This document shows positions 56,793-62,800 of a DNA stretch of 64,000 nt, piece by piece. The stretch lies in contig JALFRW010000008.1 in NCBI GenBank assembly GCA_022778715.1, positions 1 to 64,000 of the forward strand, in the 5' to 3' direction. The translations under genes were made by a program, and so were the position numbers. Below the pieces are notes generated by a model. The model saw only the letters and a list, made by a program, of their open reading frames with translations, was not told where the DNA came from and did not search any database. This stretch comes from Ezakiella sp. (GTDB taxonomy: Bacteria > Bacillota > Clostridia > Tissierellales > Peptoniphilaceae). Positions within the stretch are counted from its first letter, which is position 1. Each line of letters starts with the position of its first letter.

Positions 56793-56797
56793 GGATT

Positions 56798-56844
56798 TTA
56801 GGGGCACCAAGAAAATAAAGTTGTTTTTATTTGGTGTCCCTTTA
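56798..56844 (+). terminator. Terminator of the opp operon
   Basis: GGGGCACCAAgAAAATAAAgttgtTTTTATTTGGTGTCCCTTTATTT. Confidence 0.8.
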
Positions 56845-56859
56845 TTTATGGAAGGTAAA

Positions 56860-57426
56860 ATGAAATTAAAAAAGATTTTTAATATTGTCACTATTATATT
56901 TGTAATTATTTTTATAGCATCAATTTTTGCAATAGAGCTTAATTATTATGGCGATGATGTAAATCGTCTTTCAAGTAAAGATTATACTCCAGAAGTGAAA
57001 ACTAAAATAAAGAGATATTCTGCTATTTATCAGTTTTATATTGTGTTTATGCTATATATAATTGTTTATTCATTTGTAAGTATATTTACATTTTTAACAA
57101 GTCCATTAATTGGAGGCAAAGTTTACAAAATTGCACTTGTAGTTTTGCTTTATATCACTTCGATTATTATTTCAATAAGAGGATACTCTGCAATTTTTGA
57201 TGCAGACTGGAAAGTGAATCTAACAGGAGTTATAACATATCACTTTTATGAAACGGCATGGACTCATATGGTCGGCCTTGTGATTATGAATTTAGCAGAG
57301 CTTATAAAAAAGTGGATTGCAAAAGATTTAGTGACAGAAAACGAACAGTTTCACAAAAACTCAAAGAACAATAAATTCGAGACATTAAAGGAAATTATAA
57401 ATGAGAAGAGTGGAGAAAAAAAATAA
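56860..57426 (+). CDS. Hypothetical membrane protein, paralog of the next gene
   Basis: MKLKKIFNIVTIIFVIIFIASIFAIELNYYG...; about 4 TM; start 56860 with GGAAGG, since the 56821 start lies in the terminator. Confidence 0.7.
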   Translation: MKLKKIFNIVTIIFVIIFIASIFAIELNYYGDDVNRLSSKDYTPEVKTKIKRYSAIYQFYIVFMLYIIVYSFVSIFTFLTSPLIGGKVYKIALVVLLYITSIIISIRGYSAIFDADWKVNLTGVITYHFYETAWTHMVGLVIMNLAELIKKWIAKDLVTENEQFHKNSKNNKFETLKEIINEKSGEKK

Positions 57427-57877
57427 GAAATATTTTGAGATTGCCTTACTCATATTTTTAGTTGTAATACTATTTGCCCTAGAAAAAAATCGTATTCATG
57501 GCTATATTTACGAGATAAATTATAGACTTATGACAGAAACCCAAAGAAATCATATCAGAATTTTTAGTAGTATTTATACTGCTTTAATAGTAGTGCTTTT
57601 GTATTTTATAGTTTGTTCTTTTTGGAAGACTATTAGCTATCTTATAAGCTTTAGAGTTGGTGGAGATTTGCTAATATTTATAGTGTATTTAATATTAACA
57701 GGAGTTATTTTTTATTTCGGGTTTTACAGTGCTATATACTTGATAAAAGCCGATAGTCTTCTCAATAGAACTGGGGAAGTAATAATATCGGGTTATGTAA
57801 GAGTGTTAGCCATTTTAGGTATAATGGTTTGCAATTTATTTAGAGAAATTTTATCAAAACATTCAGAATTTAAATAG
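57401..57877 (+). CDS. Hypothetical membrane protein, paralog of the preceding gene
   Basis: IRIFSSIYTALIVVLLYFIVCSF...VGG...FYSAIY aligns with IKRYSAIYQFYIVFMLYIIVYSF...IGG...GYSAIF. Confidence 0.7.
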   Translation: MRRVEKKNKKYFEIALLIFLVVILFALEKNRIHGYIYEINYRLMTETQRNHIRIFSSIYTALIVVLLYFIVCSFWKTISYLISFRVGGDLLIFIVYLILTGVIFYFGFYSAIYLIKADSLLNRTGEVIISGYVRVLAILGIMVCNLFREILSKHSEFK

Positions 57878-57889
57878 TAAGGAGAAAAA

Positions 57890-58618
57890 ATGATAAATTA
57901 TAATACTACAAAACCACCTGAACCGCCTAAAAAGATGTTTTCTTATGAAGCTCTTTATTTATCTTTTTCATTTTTCGCTCTGATTTTCATATTTAATGAG
58001 ATATTTATATATGACTTATCAGTTATTAGTAAAATGGGACTGGAAAATGCGTCAAAAATAGACTTGAACAAGCTTTATGTCACGTTAAACGTGTTAGGAT
58101 CTGTTGCAATTCCAATTGGTGCTTTTTTAATAGAGCAATCAGTTTTAAAAGATAAAAAATTTTTATATAAGTTAATTGCTCCGGCGTTATGCTACGAGAT
58201 AATTTATGATTTGTATGCTTTTGATAAATTTTTTGAGTATAGATTTCAAAGCATTGCAATTGCATTTTTATTTGGCGCTCTTTACTCTGCTCTTTATAGG
58301 AAGTATGAAGAAAAATGGTGGATAAATGTTATTTTATCAATTGCTTTTTTAGTTATTTCAGCTATTAGTGGGATTGATAGGGGAGTTATTATTGCGGCGA
58401 TATTTGTTGTTTTAAATTTTTTTGAAAAAGATTTAAAGACACAAAGTTTATTTTCTTTTGTTGTGTCAATAGCCGGTGGCGGAATGGTTTTGGGAAATGT
58501 TTTTATTTATTTTTACGATGGTTATTACAACAGAAAAAAATTTAATGATTATTTAAATTGGATATTTGTTATTATTGCACTTTTAGTTTGGAGGATTAGA
58601 GTTATTTTTTTAGGATAG
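57890..58618 (+). CDS. Hypothetical polytopic membrane protein
   Basis: 242 aa, about 6-7 TM; AAGGAGAAAAA RBS. Confidence 0.7.
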   Translation: MINYNTTKPPEPPKKMFSYEALYLSFSFFALIFIFNEIFIYDLSVISKMGLENASKIDLNKLYVTLNVLGSVAIPIGAFLIEQSVLKDKKFLYKLIAPALCYEIIYDLYAFDKFFEYRFQSIAIAFLFGALYSALYRKYEEKWWINVILSIAFLVISAISGIDRGVIIAAIFVVLNFFEKDLKTQSLFSFVVSIAGGGMVLGNVFIYFYDGYYNRKKFNDYLNWIFVIIALLVWRIRVIFLG

Positions 58619-58626
58619 GAGATATT

Positions 58627-61092
58627 ATGGATATTAAAGATTATTATGGAAAGACAATGTTGGGTTGGATTTATTATAACGAAAATTATACTCATGGGGA
58701 AAATGCAAACTATATTAACAGAGTTTGCTATATTTATCCAAGATATATATTAGAGGAAGATGGTGAGGTTATACCAATTGACCCAAACGATTTTCCGACT
58801 TTGGGTAGCTTTGAGGTTAGAATTCAAGGCGGATTTTCAGCTGAAGAGGTGGTTGAAAAGCTAACTCATTTAGTAAAAGTTAAGTTTAATATTATTCCGG
58901 AGGAAGATTTAGAGCAACAAAACAATCATTATAGATTAAAATTCAATCCGACTTATGATCAAGAAATTTCAGAAGTTTGGATGGAAAAATTTAATGACAA
59001 TAAATTTTATCAAGTGATTTCAACCGATTTATCGATTGACGAAATTGTAAAAAGAAAGGCAATAGACTGTTATGTCGAAGATATTTTTACTAAATATATA
59101 GTGCTTAAAAATAAAGAAGGTTTTTTTGGACCATTTGACTATAGTTTTGAAGACGATGTTATAAAATTACAAGCTACAAGCCTATTCGATTACCATGTGC
59201 TCAAGCCTAATCCGGCAATTATTTCAAAAGAAATGATGCGTGTGGGCGATAGAGTAGACAATGGTGTAAACTTGGTGAGATCGGATCTTTTAGATTTAAA
59301 TTCAGATTTAAAAGATTCTTACGATTTTATCACTGACGATATTTTATTAGATATAATAATTAATATTTTTGAAGAAAGAAGTACTATTGATAGGTCCCAA
59401 GTTAAAGATTTAAGAAAGCTTTTATTCTCACAAATTAATCCTGAAGTTTATCCAGAAATCACGGATAAAAGACTTGCAAGATTAAAAGAATATATTAAAA
59501 GAACAGGATATCAAGATGAATTTTTATCGAAAATAGCATATTTCTTGATGGAAGATGAAAATAACAAGGATTACGTTTTAAGGCAAGTTTTAAATACAAG
59601 ATTTGAGGAATTGGAAGAACGCTCTACAAAGTTTATTGAAGTTAGAGAAAGACTTGAGGAGTTAAACCGCAAAAAAGAACAAGTTCAAAATGAACTTGTT
59701 ATGTTAAACAATGAGCTTATTGATTCCAAAAGTTTTATTATTAAAGAAAATGAAGCACTATCAAATGAACTAAATAAGCAAATAGAAGCTTTAGAAGAAA
59801 AAAAGAGTGAGCTTGAAAAAAATGTAGAAAATCTTATTGTGACAAATGAACTTTCAAATCTAAATTCTGAACTTGATGGAGCTATTGAAACAAAAAAACA
59901 AGAACTTGTAAGGTTAGAAAAAACTAAGTCCGGCATTTTAGAAGAGCTAAATAATGGTATTGCGGATTTTAAAAACGAAACCAAATTAATTGGCAGAGCT
60001 CTTGTGGCTAATGGATTTGATGATATTATTAATACCGCAAAAGGCAACACAAATTTTTATTACCCCGATAAAGAGCCTATAGTTTATGCTGATTTTGCAT
60101 CTAAAGATGAGATTGTGGATTATATTTACACCAAGATGAATGCCGTTTACAATCACAGAATTACTAGAAACGAAGTTGTGAATATGCTCGTGCTTTTTTC
60201 CAATAATTTCATCACAAATATAGCAGGAAAAACCGGTTCCGGAAAGACTACGACCGCAGTTAAATTTGCAAATGCGCTTGGACTAAATTTTGAAGCACAA
60301 AATCTTGTAAAAATTGCCGTGGACTTAGATATTAGATCTATAAAAGATTTGATAGGTTATTATAATCCAAATAATGGCGAAATTGTGAAATCCAACTGGC
60401 GCTTGTTTGATATGCTTGAAAGTAAAAATGAACTGAGTTGTTTGATTTTAGATGGAATTAATTCGAGCATTCCAGAGCATTTTATGGCAAGTTTAATCGG
60501 CAAAGATGTGGATGTGTGTGAAGCAATCAGTCTTGGTGGCGGAAAAGATATTTTTGCGGGCAAAGAATTTAGAATTTTAACAACGATTAACGATGACAAT
60601 TCGGGATTTATTCTCACAAATAGATATTTTGACAACACGGCTACAATGTATTCAAGTTATGATGGCAGAAGTGCGTATCGTTTAAACGATGAAGAATTTG
60701 AAGACAAAGGCGCCATTAGATATATAGATTTGATGCGCTTTAGAGAAAGAGTCGGCATCTCAAATGAATATGAAAGCAAATTTAATTCGCTTATAAGTAT
60801 ATTAAAAAAAAGCGGACAGCATATTTCTTCAAGATCAATTGAGAAATCTATTTGCTATATAGAATCAACCACAGATTTGATGGATTTAAATTGTCCAAGC
60901 AATAAATATTTGCCTCTTGAACTTGCGGTTCTTCAATTTATTGTGCCAACTCTAGATCCTGGAATAATGGGGGAACGGTTTGTATCAATGCTAGCAAACG
61001 AAATTAAAACAATGCCGCTTTTGGAAGAAAAATTGTCTGAATTTAAATCTAAATCAAAGGACAATATTTTCAGTGATTTTAATCTGGACTAG
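58627..61092 (+). CDS. Coiled-coil McrB-like AAA+ ATPase
   Basis: Coiled coil about aa 325-455; GKTGSGKTTTAVKFANALG; Walker B-like LSCLILDGINSS; FRILTTINDDNSG in the position of the McrB MNxxD motif. Confidence 0.75.
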   Translation: MDIKDYYGKTMLGWIYYNENYTHGENANYINRVCYIYPRYILEEDGEVIPIDPNDFPTLGSFEVRIQGGFSAEEVVEKLTHLVKVKFNIIPEEDLEQQNNHYRLKFNPTYDQEISEVWMEKFNDNKFYQVISTDLSIDEIVKRKAIDCYVEDIFTKYIVLKNKEGFFGPFDYSFEDDVIKLQATSLFDYHVLKPNPAIISKEMMRVGDRVDNGVNLVRSDLLDLNSDLKDSYDFITDDILLDIIINIFEERSTIDRSQVKDLRKLLFSQINPEVYPEITDKRLARLKEYIKRTGYQDEFLSKIAYFLMEDENNKDYVLRQVLNTRFEELEERSTKFIEVRERLEELNRKKEQVQNELVMLNNELIDSKSFIIKENEALSNELNKQIEALEEKKSELEKNVENLIVTNELSNLNSELDGAIETKKQELVRLEKTKSGILEELNNGIADFKNETKLIGRALVANGFDDIINTAKGNTNFYYPDKEPIVYADFASKDEIVDYIYTKMNAVYNHRITRNEVVNMLVLFSNNFITNIAGKTGSGKTTTAVKFANALGLNFEAQNLVKIAVDLDIRSIKDLIGYYNPNNGEIVKSNWRLFDMLESKNELSCLILDGINSSIPEHFMASLIGKDVDVCEAISLGGGKDIFAGKEFRILTTINDDNSGFILTNRYFDNTATMYSSYDGRSAYRLNDEEFEDKGAIRYIDLMRFRERVGISNEYESKFNSLISILKKSGQHISSRSIEKSICYIESTTDLMDLNCPSNKYLPLELAVLQFIVPTLDPGIMGERFVSMLANEIKTMPLLEEKLSEFKSKSKDNIFSDFNLD

Positions 61093-61104
61093 GGGGGTAA
61101 TCTT

Positions 61105-62751
61105 ATTAAAAGCTATGTACTTTTAAATTGTCTTTACCCACATGATGATCTAATTGTCGATATGGATATTGATAACAAAAATTCTTATGTAAATGGTTGC
61201 GTATTTGAAAATGGGCTTTATAGCATAAGTTATGTGGCTTACACCGAAAAAGAGATTGAAGACGGCATAATTTATGTGGATGATGATCCTGTGGGAGAGC
61301 TGGAGTTTGTGTCAAAGTCTGACAACAGACAAGAGTATCGTGTCAATTTTCAAATCCAGTACGGTGGACGAGATAGAGCATATCCATTTTTGATGCTGAT
61401 TGATTCGATAAAGCTTAAACTATATCTCAAATTCACTGATGATTCTGACTTATATTTATATTCGCAGAGAATTCTTGTAACCACAAAAAATGACACGGAC
61501 CAAAAAAGCATAAATGAAATGATATGTTATATAATGTCAGACAAAGGACTTTACCGTGAGATAAATGAAAATTTGGAATTTTCTGCACTATCCATAGGAA
61601 AATACGGTGAGTATTTAGATAGAGTATTTTTGGAACTTCAAAAATATAAATTCAGATACTATGATTCTAAAGAAAGAACAAATTATAGCAGAGATTACTG
61701 TTTTAGAGATATTGGCAAAAATTACACAGTACCAGAAATTAAAAGGGAATTAAAATTCATAAATGAATTTTTGGATAATTTGTACTACGAAACGGTTAAA
61801 ATAGAGCGTATATTTAAAAGCATTTTATATGAAAACAAAAAGCAGTATGAAGATTTAAAGAAATTCATTCCGGCAGAATTTACAGCACCTATTATCACTA
61901 CGCAGGAGCTTCAACTTAAAAAGGGAATTTCTGAATATTACAATCTCACTCAAAATATAGAAAAAATTAAAGCTTTACGCAGATTTTTCTCGAATAATAA
62001 CGGCAAAGCAAATGAAGCACGTCTTATTAAAAAGAGCTACAAAAAATATGAAAGCGAAAAAATTAAAGCACTTGGATCGCTCAATTATCAGCGGTTTTTC
62101 TACAACATTGAGTCTCTCGACAAGTTATATGAGTACTACTGCTTGGCACGAATATTGAATCTTTTAGATGAAATTAACTATATTCCGGATAGAGAGAAGG
62201 ATATAAATTTTAACTACGAAACAGGAAACTCTCTTTTCTTAAATGAAAATTTTTTAAACAACACTTTCTATCGGAAAAAAGGATATGTAAATTTAACTTT
62301 GTATTTTCAACCGGTCGTCTACAGAGATTCATCAAAAAATGAGATTGGGCTTTTTAGAACGACAGGTGCGGACAAAATGTATACTCCGTTTAATAAAACC
62401 GGCGATTATTATAGTCCGGATTTTATTATAAAATTTTCCGGGAAACGCGACAGATATTTGATTTTGGATTCCAAATTTCAAACTAGAAACACGATTCTAA
62501 AGAGAGATATGGAAGAAGTTATAAGCAAATATTATGTTCAATTAAGAGACGCGAATTACAATCGCTCTCAATATGTATATGTGCTCCAAGGTAGAGCAGA
62601 CGAAAATAAGACCACACTTTGGAACTATGAAAATTTTGAAATGAATAAAAATAATATATCAAATTTTGGTATTATTCATTTTTCACCGGAGATTGATAAT
62701 AATTATTATTTCATAAACCTTATTTCTAAATTAGAAAATGAAGTAAAATAA
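61105..62751 (+). CDS. DUF2357/McrC-like protein with PD-(D/E)xK nuclease domain; probable ATT start
   Basis: YYSPDFIIKFSGKRDRYLILDSKFQ (PD...DxK) and SLDKLYEYYCLARILNLLDE; frame open upstream of the ATG at 61162, with AGGGGGGT before ATT at 61105. Confidence 0.65.
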   Translation: MKSYVLLNCLYPHDDLIVDMDIDNKNSYVNGCVFENGLYSISYVAYTEKEIEDGIIYVDDDPVGELEFVSKSDNRQEYRVNFQIQYGGRDRAYPFLMLIDSIKLKLYLKFTDDSDLYLYSQRILVTTKNDTDQKSINEMICYIMSDKGLYREINENLEFSALSIGKYGEYLDRVFLELQKYKFRYYDSKERTNYSRDYCFRDIGKNYTVPEIKRELKFINEFLDNLYYETVKIERIFKSILYENKKQYEDLKKFIPAEFTAPIITTQELQLKKGISEYYNLTQNIEKIKALRRFFSNNNGKANEARLIKKSYKKYESEKIKALGSLNYQRFFYNIESLDKLYEYYCLARILNLLDEINYIPDREKDINFNYETGNSLFLNENFLNNTFYRKKGYVNLTLYFQPVVYRDSSKNEIGLFRTTGADKMYTPFNKTGDYYSPDFIIKFSGKRDRYLILDSKFQTRNTILKRDMEEVISKYYVQLRDANYNRSQYVYVLQGRADENKTTLWNYENFEMNKNNISNFGIIHFSPEIDNNYYFINLISKLENEVK

Positions 62752-62759
62752 ATAAAAAA

Positions 62760-62800
62760 CTACCGAAACTCTTAATTGGATAGTTCGGTAGTTTTTTATT
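62760..62800. terminator. Bidirectional terminator between convergent genes
   Basis: ACTACCGAAactcttaattggatagTTCGGTAGTTTTTT. Confidence 0.85.

Follow-up and report, generated by a model that had tools for sequence, protein, structure and literature searches.

Loss of motor residues in a CoCoNuT-like McrBC-family pair linked to membrane-protein genes in Ezakiella, and its possible domestication

The question raised by this locus is what a relative of the McrBC restriction systems is doing in a tightly spaced module with three membrane-protein genes, at one place in the chromosome of Ezakiella. The window, that is, the whole stretch of 64,000 nucleotides that was analysed, belongs to the 1.62 Mb genome of an Ezakiella species. 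A preliminary description of it had listed five codirectional ORFs (Table 1) encoding two small paralogous transmembrane (TM) proteins, a third polytopic membrane protein, an 821-residue protein with a coiled coil and a P-loop, and a protein with a PD...DxK motif, and had read the last two as a McrB-like AAA+ protein and a McrC/DUF2357-like PD-(D/E)xK nuclease of the CoCoNuT kind; from their coupling to the membrane proteins it had suggested a membrane-associated nucleic-acid defence or stress system, of which the defence role stays a hypothesis here. The observations were borne out, the P-loop reading GKTGSGKTT and the coil being a proline-free helix of 144 residues, with the exception of one start codon and of one part of the proposed membrane link (see below). 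The ORFs go beyond chance, being intact and in the same order in six species with dN/dS values of 0.04-0.15. TM1 and TM2 overlap, and the remaining module genes are spaced by 8-12 nt. The two terminators placed earlier at 56798-56844 on the opp side and at 62760-62800 at the 3' end also held, since the first hairpin folds better than its shuffled versions and the second is a good terminator hairpin; both were missing from a simple terminator scan because the stem rules are stricter there.

Table 1. Positions of the module, its genes, protein domains and flanking hairpins in the window
Feature	Position	Strand	Remarks
Five-gene module	56860-62751	+	between the oppDF hairpin and the tyrS-side terminator
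Hairpin, terminator-like	56798..56841	+	between oppDF and TM1; fold z = -3.9
TM1, 188 aa, about four TM helices, charged C-terminal tail	56860..57426	+	ORF; orthologues in 5/6 Ezakiella
TM2, 158 aa	57401..57877	+	TM1 paralogue (31% identical), overlaps TM1
mem3, 242 aa, polytopic membrane protein	57890..58618	+	remote TraX (PF05857) relative; 6/6 Ezakiella
McrB/CnuB-like coiled-coil AAA+ protein, 821 aa	58627..61092	+	
N-terminal beta-rich region, residues 1-235	58627..59331	+	best conserved part of the ATPase within Ezakiella; AF2 strands
Coiled coil, residues 328-471	59608..60039	+	one continuous AF2 helix (low confidence); no proline
Walker A GKTGSGKT, residues 534-541	60226..60249	+	intact
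Walker B D609-G610	60451..60456	+	catalytic Glu replaced: D-G in the window, D-N in the other five
NxD/sensor-1 N655-D-D657; putative arginine-finger site D669-N670	60589..60636	+	D-R in homologues
McrC/CnuC-like nuclease, 548 aa	61105..62751	+	start codon probably ATT at 61105
IG-like beta-sandwich, residues 1-129	61105..61491	+	AF2 strands
DUF2357-like helical region, shortened	61492..62112	+	about 50 residues missing, the YEN segment among them
PD-(D/E)xK nuclease domain	62113..62748	+	P438-D439 ... D455-x-K457 invariant
Rho-independent terminator	62757..62799	+	3' of the nuclease gene

The pair is a McrB/McrC relative of the NxD branch, with a layout closest to the two-gene Type I (I-C-like) CoCoNuTs; the likeness to I-C is one of architecture by description, and the ATPase tree described below contains no named CoCoNuT. 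The AF2 model of the ATPase (moderate, pLDDT 66) runs from a beta-rich N-terminus through helices and the 144-residue helix to an AAA+ domain that matches the AAA+ folds of NorQ/MoxR, MCM and dynein; this fold stands together with a Walker A motif, as in McrB-like NxD-branch GTPases. The PADLOC profile PDC-M26A matched the ATPase of the window and those of two out of three scanned sister species, at 4e-10 to 5e-18. The N-terminal domain had no match among PDB sequences, and its profile retrieved only two Ezakiella and one weak match from 392 genomes of the class. Weak matches of the coil to SMC, PspA, Exonuc_VII, JetC and LmuB (Pfam, NCBIfam, PADLOC) were taken as coiled-coil bias, and many further weak matches (profile 380-555, frames of 760-850 aa) resemble Lon, a protein that also came up in the PDB search.

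For the nuclease of the window no Pfam family match was obtained, and a fold search with its AF2 model (pLDDT 66, moderate) yielded no nuclease from the PDB that matched the C-terminal domain. Its full-length homologue at locus L017, 25% identical, nevertheless matches PF09823 and PF04411 (DUF2357, PDDEXK_7) over the curated cut-offs, and the PD...DxK residues, aligned with those of homologues, are invariant in all six Ezakiella proteins. The best PDB folds for the IG-like domain were RhoGDI (1rho), which came first, and FnIII (3pe9), with a probability of 1.0 and E of about 4e-3. Since a RhoGDI-like IG domain has been reported for the CnuC of Types I-B and I-C, and Type I-C systems have been described that consist of two genes and have a CnuB with a coiled coil (PMC11090510), we regard the architecture as Type I-like.

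The main departure from this family, overlooked in the preliminary description, lies in the motor. In McrB, the Walker-B glutamate and the asparagine of NxxD position the catalytic water, and mutation of neighbouring arginines impairs activity (PMC7680126); within the McrB-like NxD branch, the NxD motif is described as strictly conserved. Walker A is kept in all six Ezakiella proteins. The Walker-B glutamate is lost in every one of them, as is the arginine of the D-R pair (D-N or D-K instead), a putative arginine finger whose role was assigned by alignment and not by structure. The asparagine of NxD/sensor-1 is lost in five of the six, which read TDD, QDD, AGD, QKD and QKD, and is kept by the window (NDD). 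Outside the genus, 35 of 35 aligned homologues keep the Walker-B glutamate (34 as D-E, one as E-E), N-x-D and D-R; five of these homologues had been found early, 28 came from a sample of 399 genomes of the phylum, and two are plasmid pairs. In the tree, the Ezakiella ATPases form one clade (support 100/100) whose very long stem measures 2.6 changes per site; the clade lies among intact coiled-coil homologues and has L017 as its sister (95/88), which indicates that the residue loss is derived and probably happened once. Therefore, the Ezakiella ATPase is unlikely to act as a McrB motor, the residue loss predicting, without proving, a loss of hydrolysis.

The partner has changed as well. Compared with homologues, the Ezakiella proteins have a DUF2357 region that is shorter by about 50 residues, and the YEN segment, absent in Ezakiella, reads YEN in five of seven homologues and AEN in a sixth. 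The McrC finger domain, which activates McrB (PMC7680126), is part of the region called DUF2357. It appears that the nuclease partner degenerated alongside the motor and, with PD...DxK kept, that the nuclease itself is intact. Mean identities within Ezakiella are 56% for the N-terminal domain and 43% for the AAA+ domain of the ATPase, and 58% for the nuclease domain and 28% for DUF2357, the last value being perhaps partly a product of alignment error. Between the homologues L022 and L023 the corresponding values are 68% for AAA+, 43% for the N-terminal domain, 61% for DUF2357 and 63% for the nuclease domain, and between L017 and L022 they are 42% for AAA+ and 21% for the N-terminal domain. Judged from these alignments, constraint has shifted away from the motor and towards the N-terminal domain and the nuclease.

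The module follows oppABCDF directly, at 50-107 nt, in all six Ezakiella genomes, a sample of six species of which two are nearly identical. The genes for mem3, ATPase and nuclease are found in six of six and a four-TM gene in five; the ATPase is one intact frame in each genome, 42-58% identical to that of the window. No full ATPase was found in about 50 other sampled genera, where one order-level genome (G051) gave a distant AAA+ match only. A single-protein genome scan and a search of viral contigs retrieved no relative, and an alignment scan retrieved four records of the genus plus L017. Between the window and E. coagulans (G004) identity is 76-92% for the flanking opp proteins and 47-58% for the proteins of the module, and across Ezakiella the ATPase, at 42-58%, compares with 82-88% for oppDF; between the two closest species the dN/dS of TM1, mem3, ATPase and nuclease (0.04-0.15) is like that of opp. 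As far as these comparisons reach, the module is fast-diverging yet under purifying selection, and is vertically inherited and fixed in Ezakiella, unlike its mobile relatives; the patchy, horizontally moving distribution expected of a mobile anti-phage system was not seen. Relatives do occur in mobile settings, next to a relaxase-like gene (L017), next to phage genes (L024), and on plasmids of Klebsiella and Acinetobacter beside integrases and RM genes, and for this reason the ancestor of the module was probably a mobile defence pair.

The preliminary description had further coupled the membrane genes to the ATPase and nuclease, a claim that holds inside Ezakiella (mem3 in 6/6, TM1-type in 5/6); neither gene was seen beside such a pair elsewhere. 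The gap between mem3 and the ATPase gene is 0-10 nt in all six genomes. TM1-like genes are present in two copies in the window and G003, in one copy in G001, G004 and G005, and in none in G002, and the dN/dS of TM1 between the two closest species is 0.05. Among the homologous pairs inspected, no polytopic gene was found upstream within the flank covered, and one pair has a frame of 80 aa with a single TM segment; the membrane link is thus taken as an Ezakiella trait, and it is operon structure that suggests it. The likeness of mem3 to TraX (PF05857) covers residues 65-194 and scores 24.4 bits, below the Pfam cut-off of 25, and three mem3 orthologues scanned against Pfam gave no TraX match. The mem3 profile does pick up ordinary TraX genes, which elsewhere stand alone, none adjoining a McrBC-like pair, and mem3 is without the N-terminal DH segment of those genes; its most conserved parts are the N-terminal tail NYN..KP...KK and a YFYD motif. 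An identification of mem3 as TraX was therefore rejected as remote, sub-cut-off and at odds with the solitary TraX genes elsewhere. The idea that the 300-nt gap of E. coagulans holds a decayed TM2 was likewise rejected, as no significant similarity was seen. One TM1 relative was found outside Ezakiella, in an order-level genome (G041; L071 7014-7562), where it lies by itself between a hisS/hisZ-like gene and thrS.

Regarding expression, a strong terminator-like hairpin lies between opp and the module at all six Ezakiella loci (window 56795-56859), with a different sequence each time. In the window about 18 nt separate its 3' end from the TM1 start codon, and promoter room after it is scant there, in E. 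coagulans and in G003, so that the module seems to require either readthrough or a promoter that lies before the hairpin; its expression by readthrough from the opp side is possible. The nuclease ORF stood as first described, whereas its start is very probably ATT 61105 and not ATG 61162. In five of the six Ezakiella the first conserved codon of the nuclease is not ATG but ATT (three) or ATC (two, the E. peruensis pair); this codon follows a strong Shine-Dalgarno sequence and aligns with the ATG of G003, and the ATT is where the first strand of the AF2 model starts. The E. peruensis pair also has a TTG four codons downstream, but its distance to the Shine-Dalgarno is about 17 nt. Translation of the nuclease thus probably starts at AUU or AUC in five of the six species. 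At 61093-61170 of the window, start calls restricted to ATG/GTG/TTG give a nuclease that is too short. Stop-codon readthrough or frameshifting that would fuse ATPase and nuclease was rejected, as the relative frame differs among species.

Comparison with described systems defines what is particular here. Type I (I-C-like) CoCoNuTs (Bell et al. 2024, PMC11090510) share the two adjacent genes and the NxD-type spacing; their CnuB has N-terminal beta domains, coiled coil and AAA+ like the window ATPase (the coil here per AF2), and their CnuC has RhoGDI-like IG, DUF2357 and PD-(D/E)xK domains like the window nuclease. Unlike them, the Ezakiella pair has lost the Walker-B glutamate, the arginine finger and, in five of six, the NxD asparagine, has a shortened DUF2357, is linked to TraX-like and 4-TM genes and is inherited vertically in one genus. 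The McrBC of E. coli and T. gammatolerans (PMC7680126, PMC6624300) also joins an AAA+ protein to a PD-DxK nuclease partner, but it has an NxxD motif, a functional GTPase that the finger domain of McrC stimulates and, in E. coli, a methylcytosine-binding domain, with neither coiled coil nor membrane genes. CoCoPALM (PMC11090510) is an NxD-branch pair with a coiled coil and a membrane connection; its FtsB-like domain is fused to the GTPase and signal-peptidase-like genes accompany it, whereas the Ezakiella membrane proteins are separate and polytopic, and hydropathy gave no TM segment in the window ATPase that would correspond to such a fused domain. TraX differs from mem3 in its DH segment and in that mem3 sits in a McrBC-like operon. 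The PADLOC candidate PDC-M26A (e.g. L024, L025, L078-L100), on which a literature search found nothing, has a homologous AAA+ domain and usually a DUF2357/PD-(D/E)xK-type partner; its proteins differ in being mostly 550-750 aa long, with DE and NxD intact and no polytopic membrane gene seen alongside. The G051 locus L025 (230-18001) holds a DUF2357-type ATPase/nuclease pair that has SEL1-like repeat proteins, a CbxX-type AAA+ protein and the end of a large toxin-like gene around it.

We hypothesize, at a probability of roughly 0.45, that the module arose by domestication of a Type I CoCoNuT-like pair of the McrBC family, fixed in the Ezakiella ancestor, whose motor catalysis was lost and which became tied to dedicated membrane proteins. 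The sequences themselves show the family relationship, vertical inheritance, purifying selection, the loss of hydrolysis residues beside a retained Walker A, the shortening of DUF2357 beside retained nuclease residues, and the operon linkage of mem3 and TM1. The coiled-coil protein would bind nucleotide with little or no turnover and serve as a static, switch-like scaffold, while its conserved N-terminal domain would bind a ligand. The CSD/YTH domains of CnuB point, by analogy, to nucleic acid as the probable ligand, which is a guess because the fold of this N-terminal domain has no match. The coiled coil and the conserved tail of mem3 may hold the complex at the membrane, where ligand binding could release or position the PD-(D/E)xK nuclease for local cleavage of nucleic acid without DNA translocation, and the upstream terminator and the AUU/AUC start would keep output low and the nuclease scarce. 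The likeliest use would be to counter incoming DNA or the nucleic acid of phages at the membrane. A bolder and rather doubtful extension is that this represents a new class, a resident membrane-anchored nuclease complex in which a McrB-descended pseudo-NTPase is a nucleotide-gated sensor and not a motor; fixed in a genus, it would have evolved from a mobile CoCoNuT-like pair that lost hydrolysis and captured membrane partners.

Other readings have to be weighed against domestication. An ordinary, active Type IV restriction or CoCoNuT defence system, with membrane genes adjacent by chance, would agree with the two-gene close relatives in mobile settings (L017, L024, plasmids), the unchanged domain order and the intact PD-(D/E)xK; we consider it improbable, as Walker-B glutamate and arginine finger are lost in 6/6 and the sensor-1 asparagine in 5/6 against 0/35 homologues, the DUF2357 is shortened, the locus is vertical and fixed in the genus, and mem3 abuts the ATPase gene (0-10 nt) in every species. 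Somewhat less unlikely is a domesticated module outside defence, engaged in membrane-localised nucleic-acid processing (stress, DNA uptake, envelope physiology) and possibly co-expressed with the peptide-uptake genes (opp). Fixation throughout the genus at a single chromosomal site, 50-107 nt after opp, purifying selection and the stress-response role proposed for Pseudo-Type I-B CoCoNuTs (PMC11090510) fit such a role, but no link to a known process was seen, and the fast divergence (ATPase 42-58% vs oppDF 82-88%) resembles that of a conflict gene more than that of a housekeeping one.

An abortive-infection style nuclease toxin, restrained by the dead-motor protein and with the membrane proteins providing sensing or immunity, would account for the weak AUU/AUC start of the nuclease gene, the varying copy number of TM1/TM2 and a coiled-coil scaffold that has a nucleotide-binding site; the absence of TM1-type genes from G002 means that they are not an obligatory antidote, and we give this reading as small a chance as active restriction. 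Loss of catalytic residues and of part of DUF2357, and TM copy numbers drifting from 0 to 2, might instead suggest decay, the module being the relic of a mobile defence pair that was captured and is losing its function. That all ORFs are intact in six species despite 40-60% divergence, with nuclease motif and N-terminal blocks strongly kept, makes decay very improbable, and the dN/dS of 0.04-0.15 largely refutes it.

The current picture of McrBC is that of a translocating nuclease driven by GTP. Here both halves of the hydrolysis switch, the AAA+ residues and the DUF2357 region of the partner, have been lost together while selection still acts on the N-terminal domain and the nuclease, a natural separation-of-function experiment that makes testable whether McrBC/CoCoNuT nucleases can act motor-free and what the N-terminal domain senses. 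It would also document the passage of a mobile defence-type pair to a fixed genus trait with membrane partners, in small anaerobic bacteria of the human body. On the side of the mobile relatives, coiled-coil AAA+/hypothetical-protein pairs related to L017 (L109 5170-9497, L110 5356-9632) are common on plasmids, where their annotation goes no further than AAA family ATPase or hypothetical protein; the L017 ATPase matches 277 plasmid records, 154 of them from Klebsiella.
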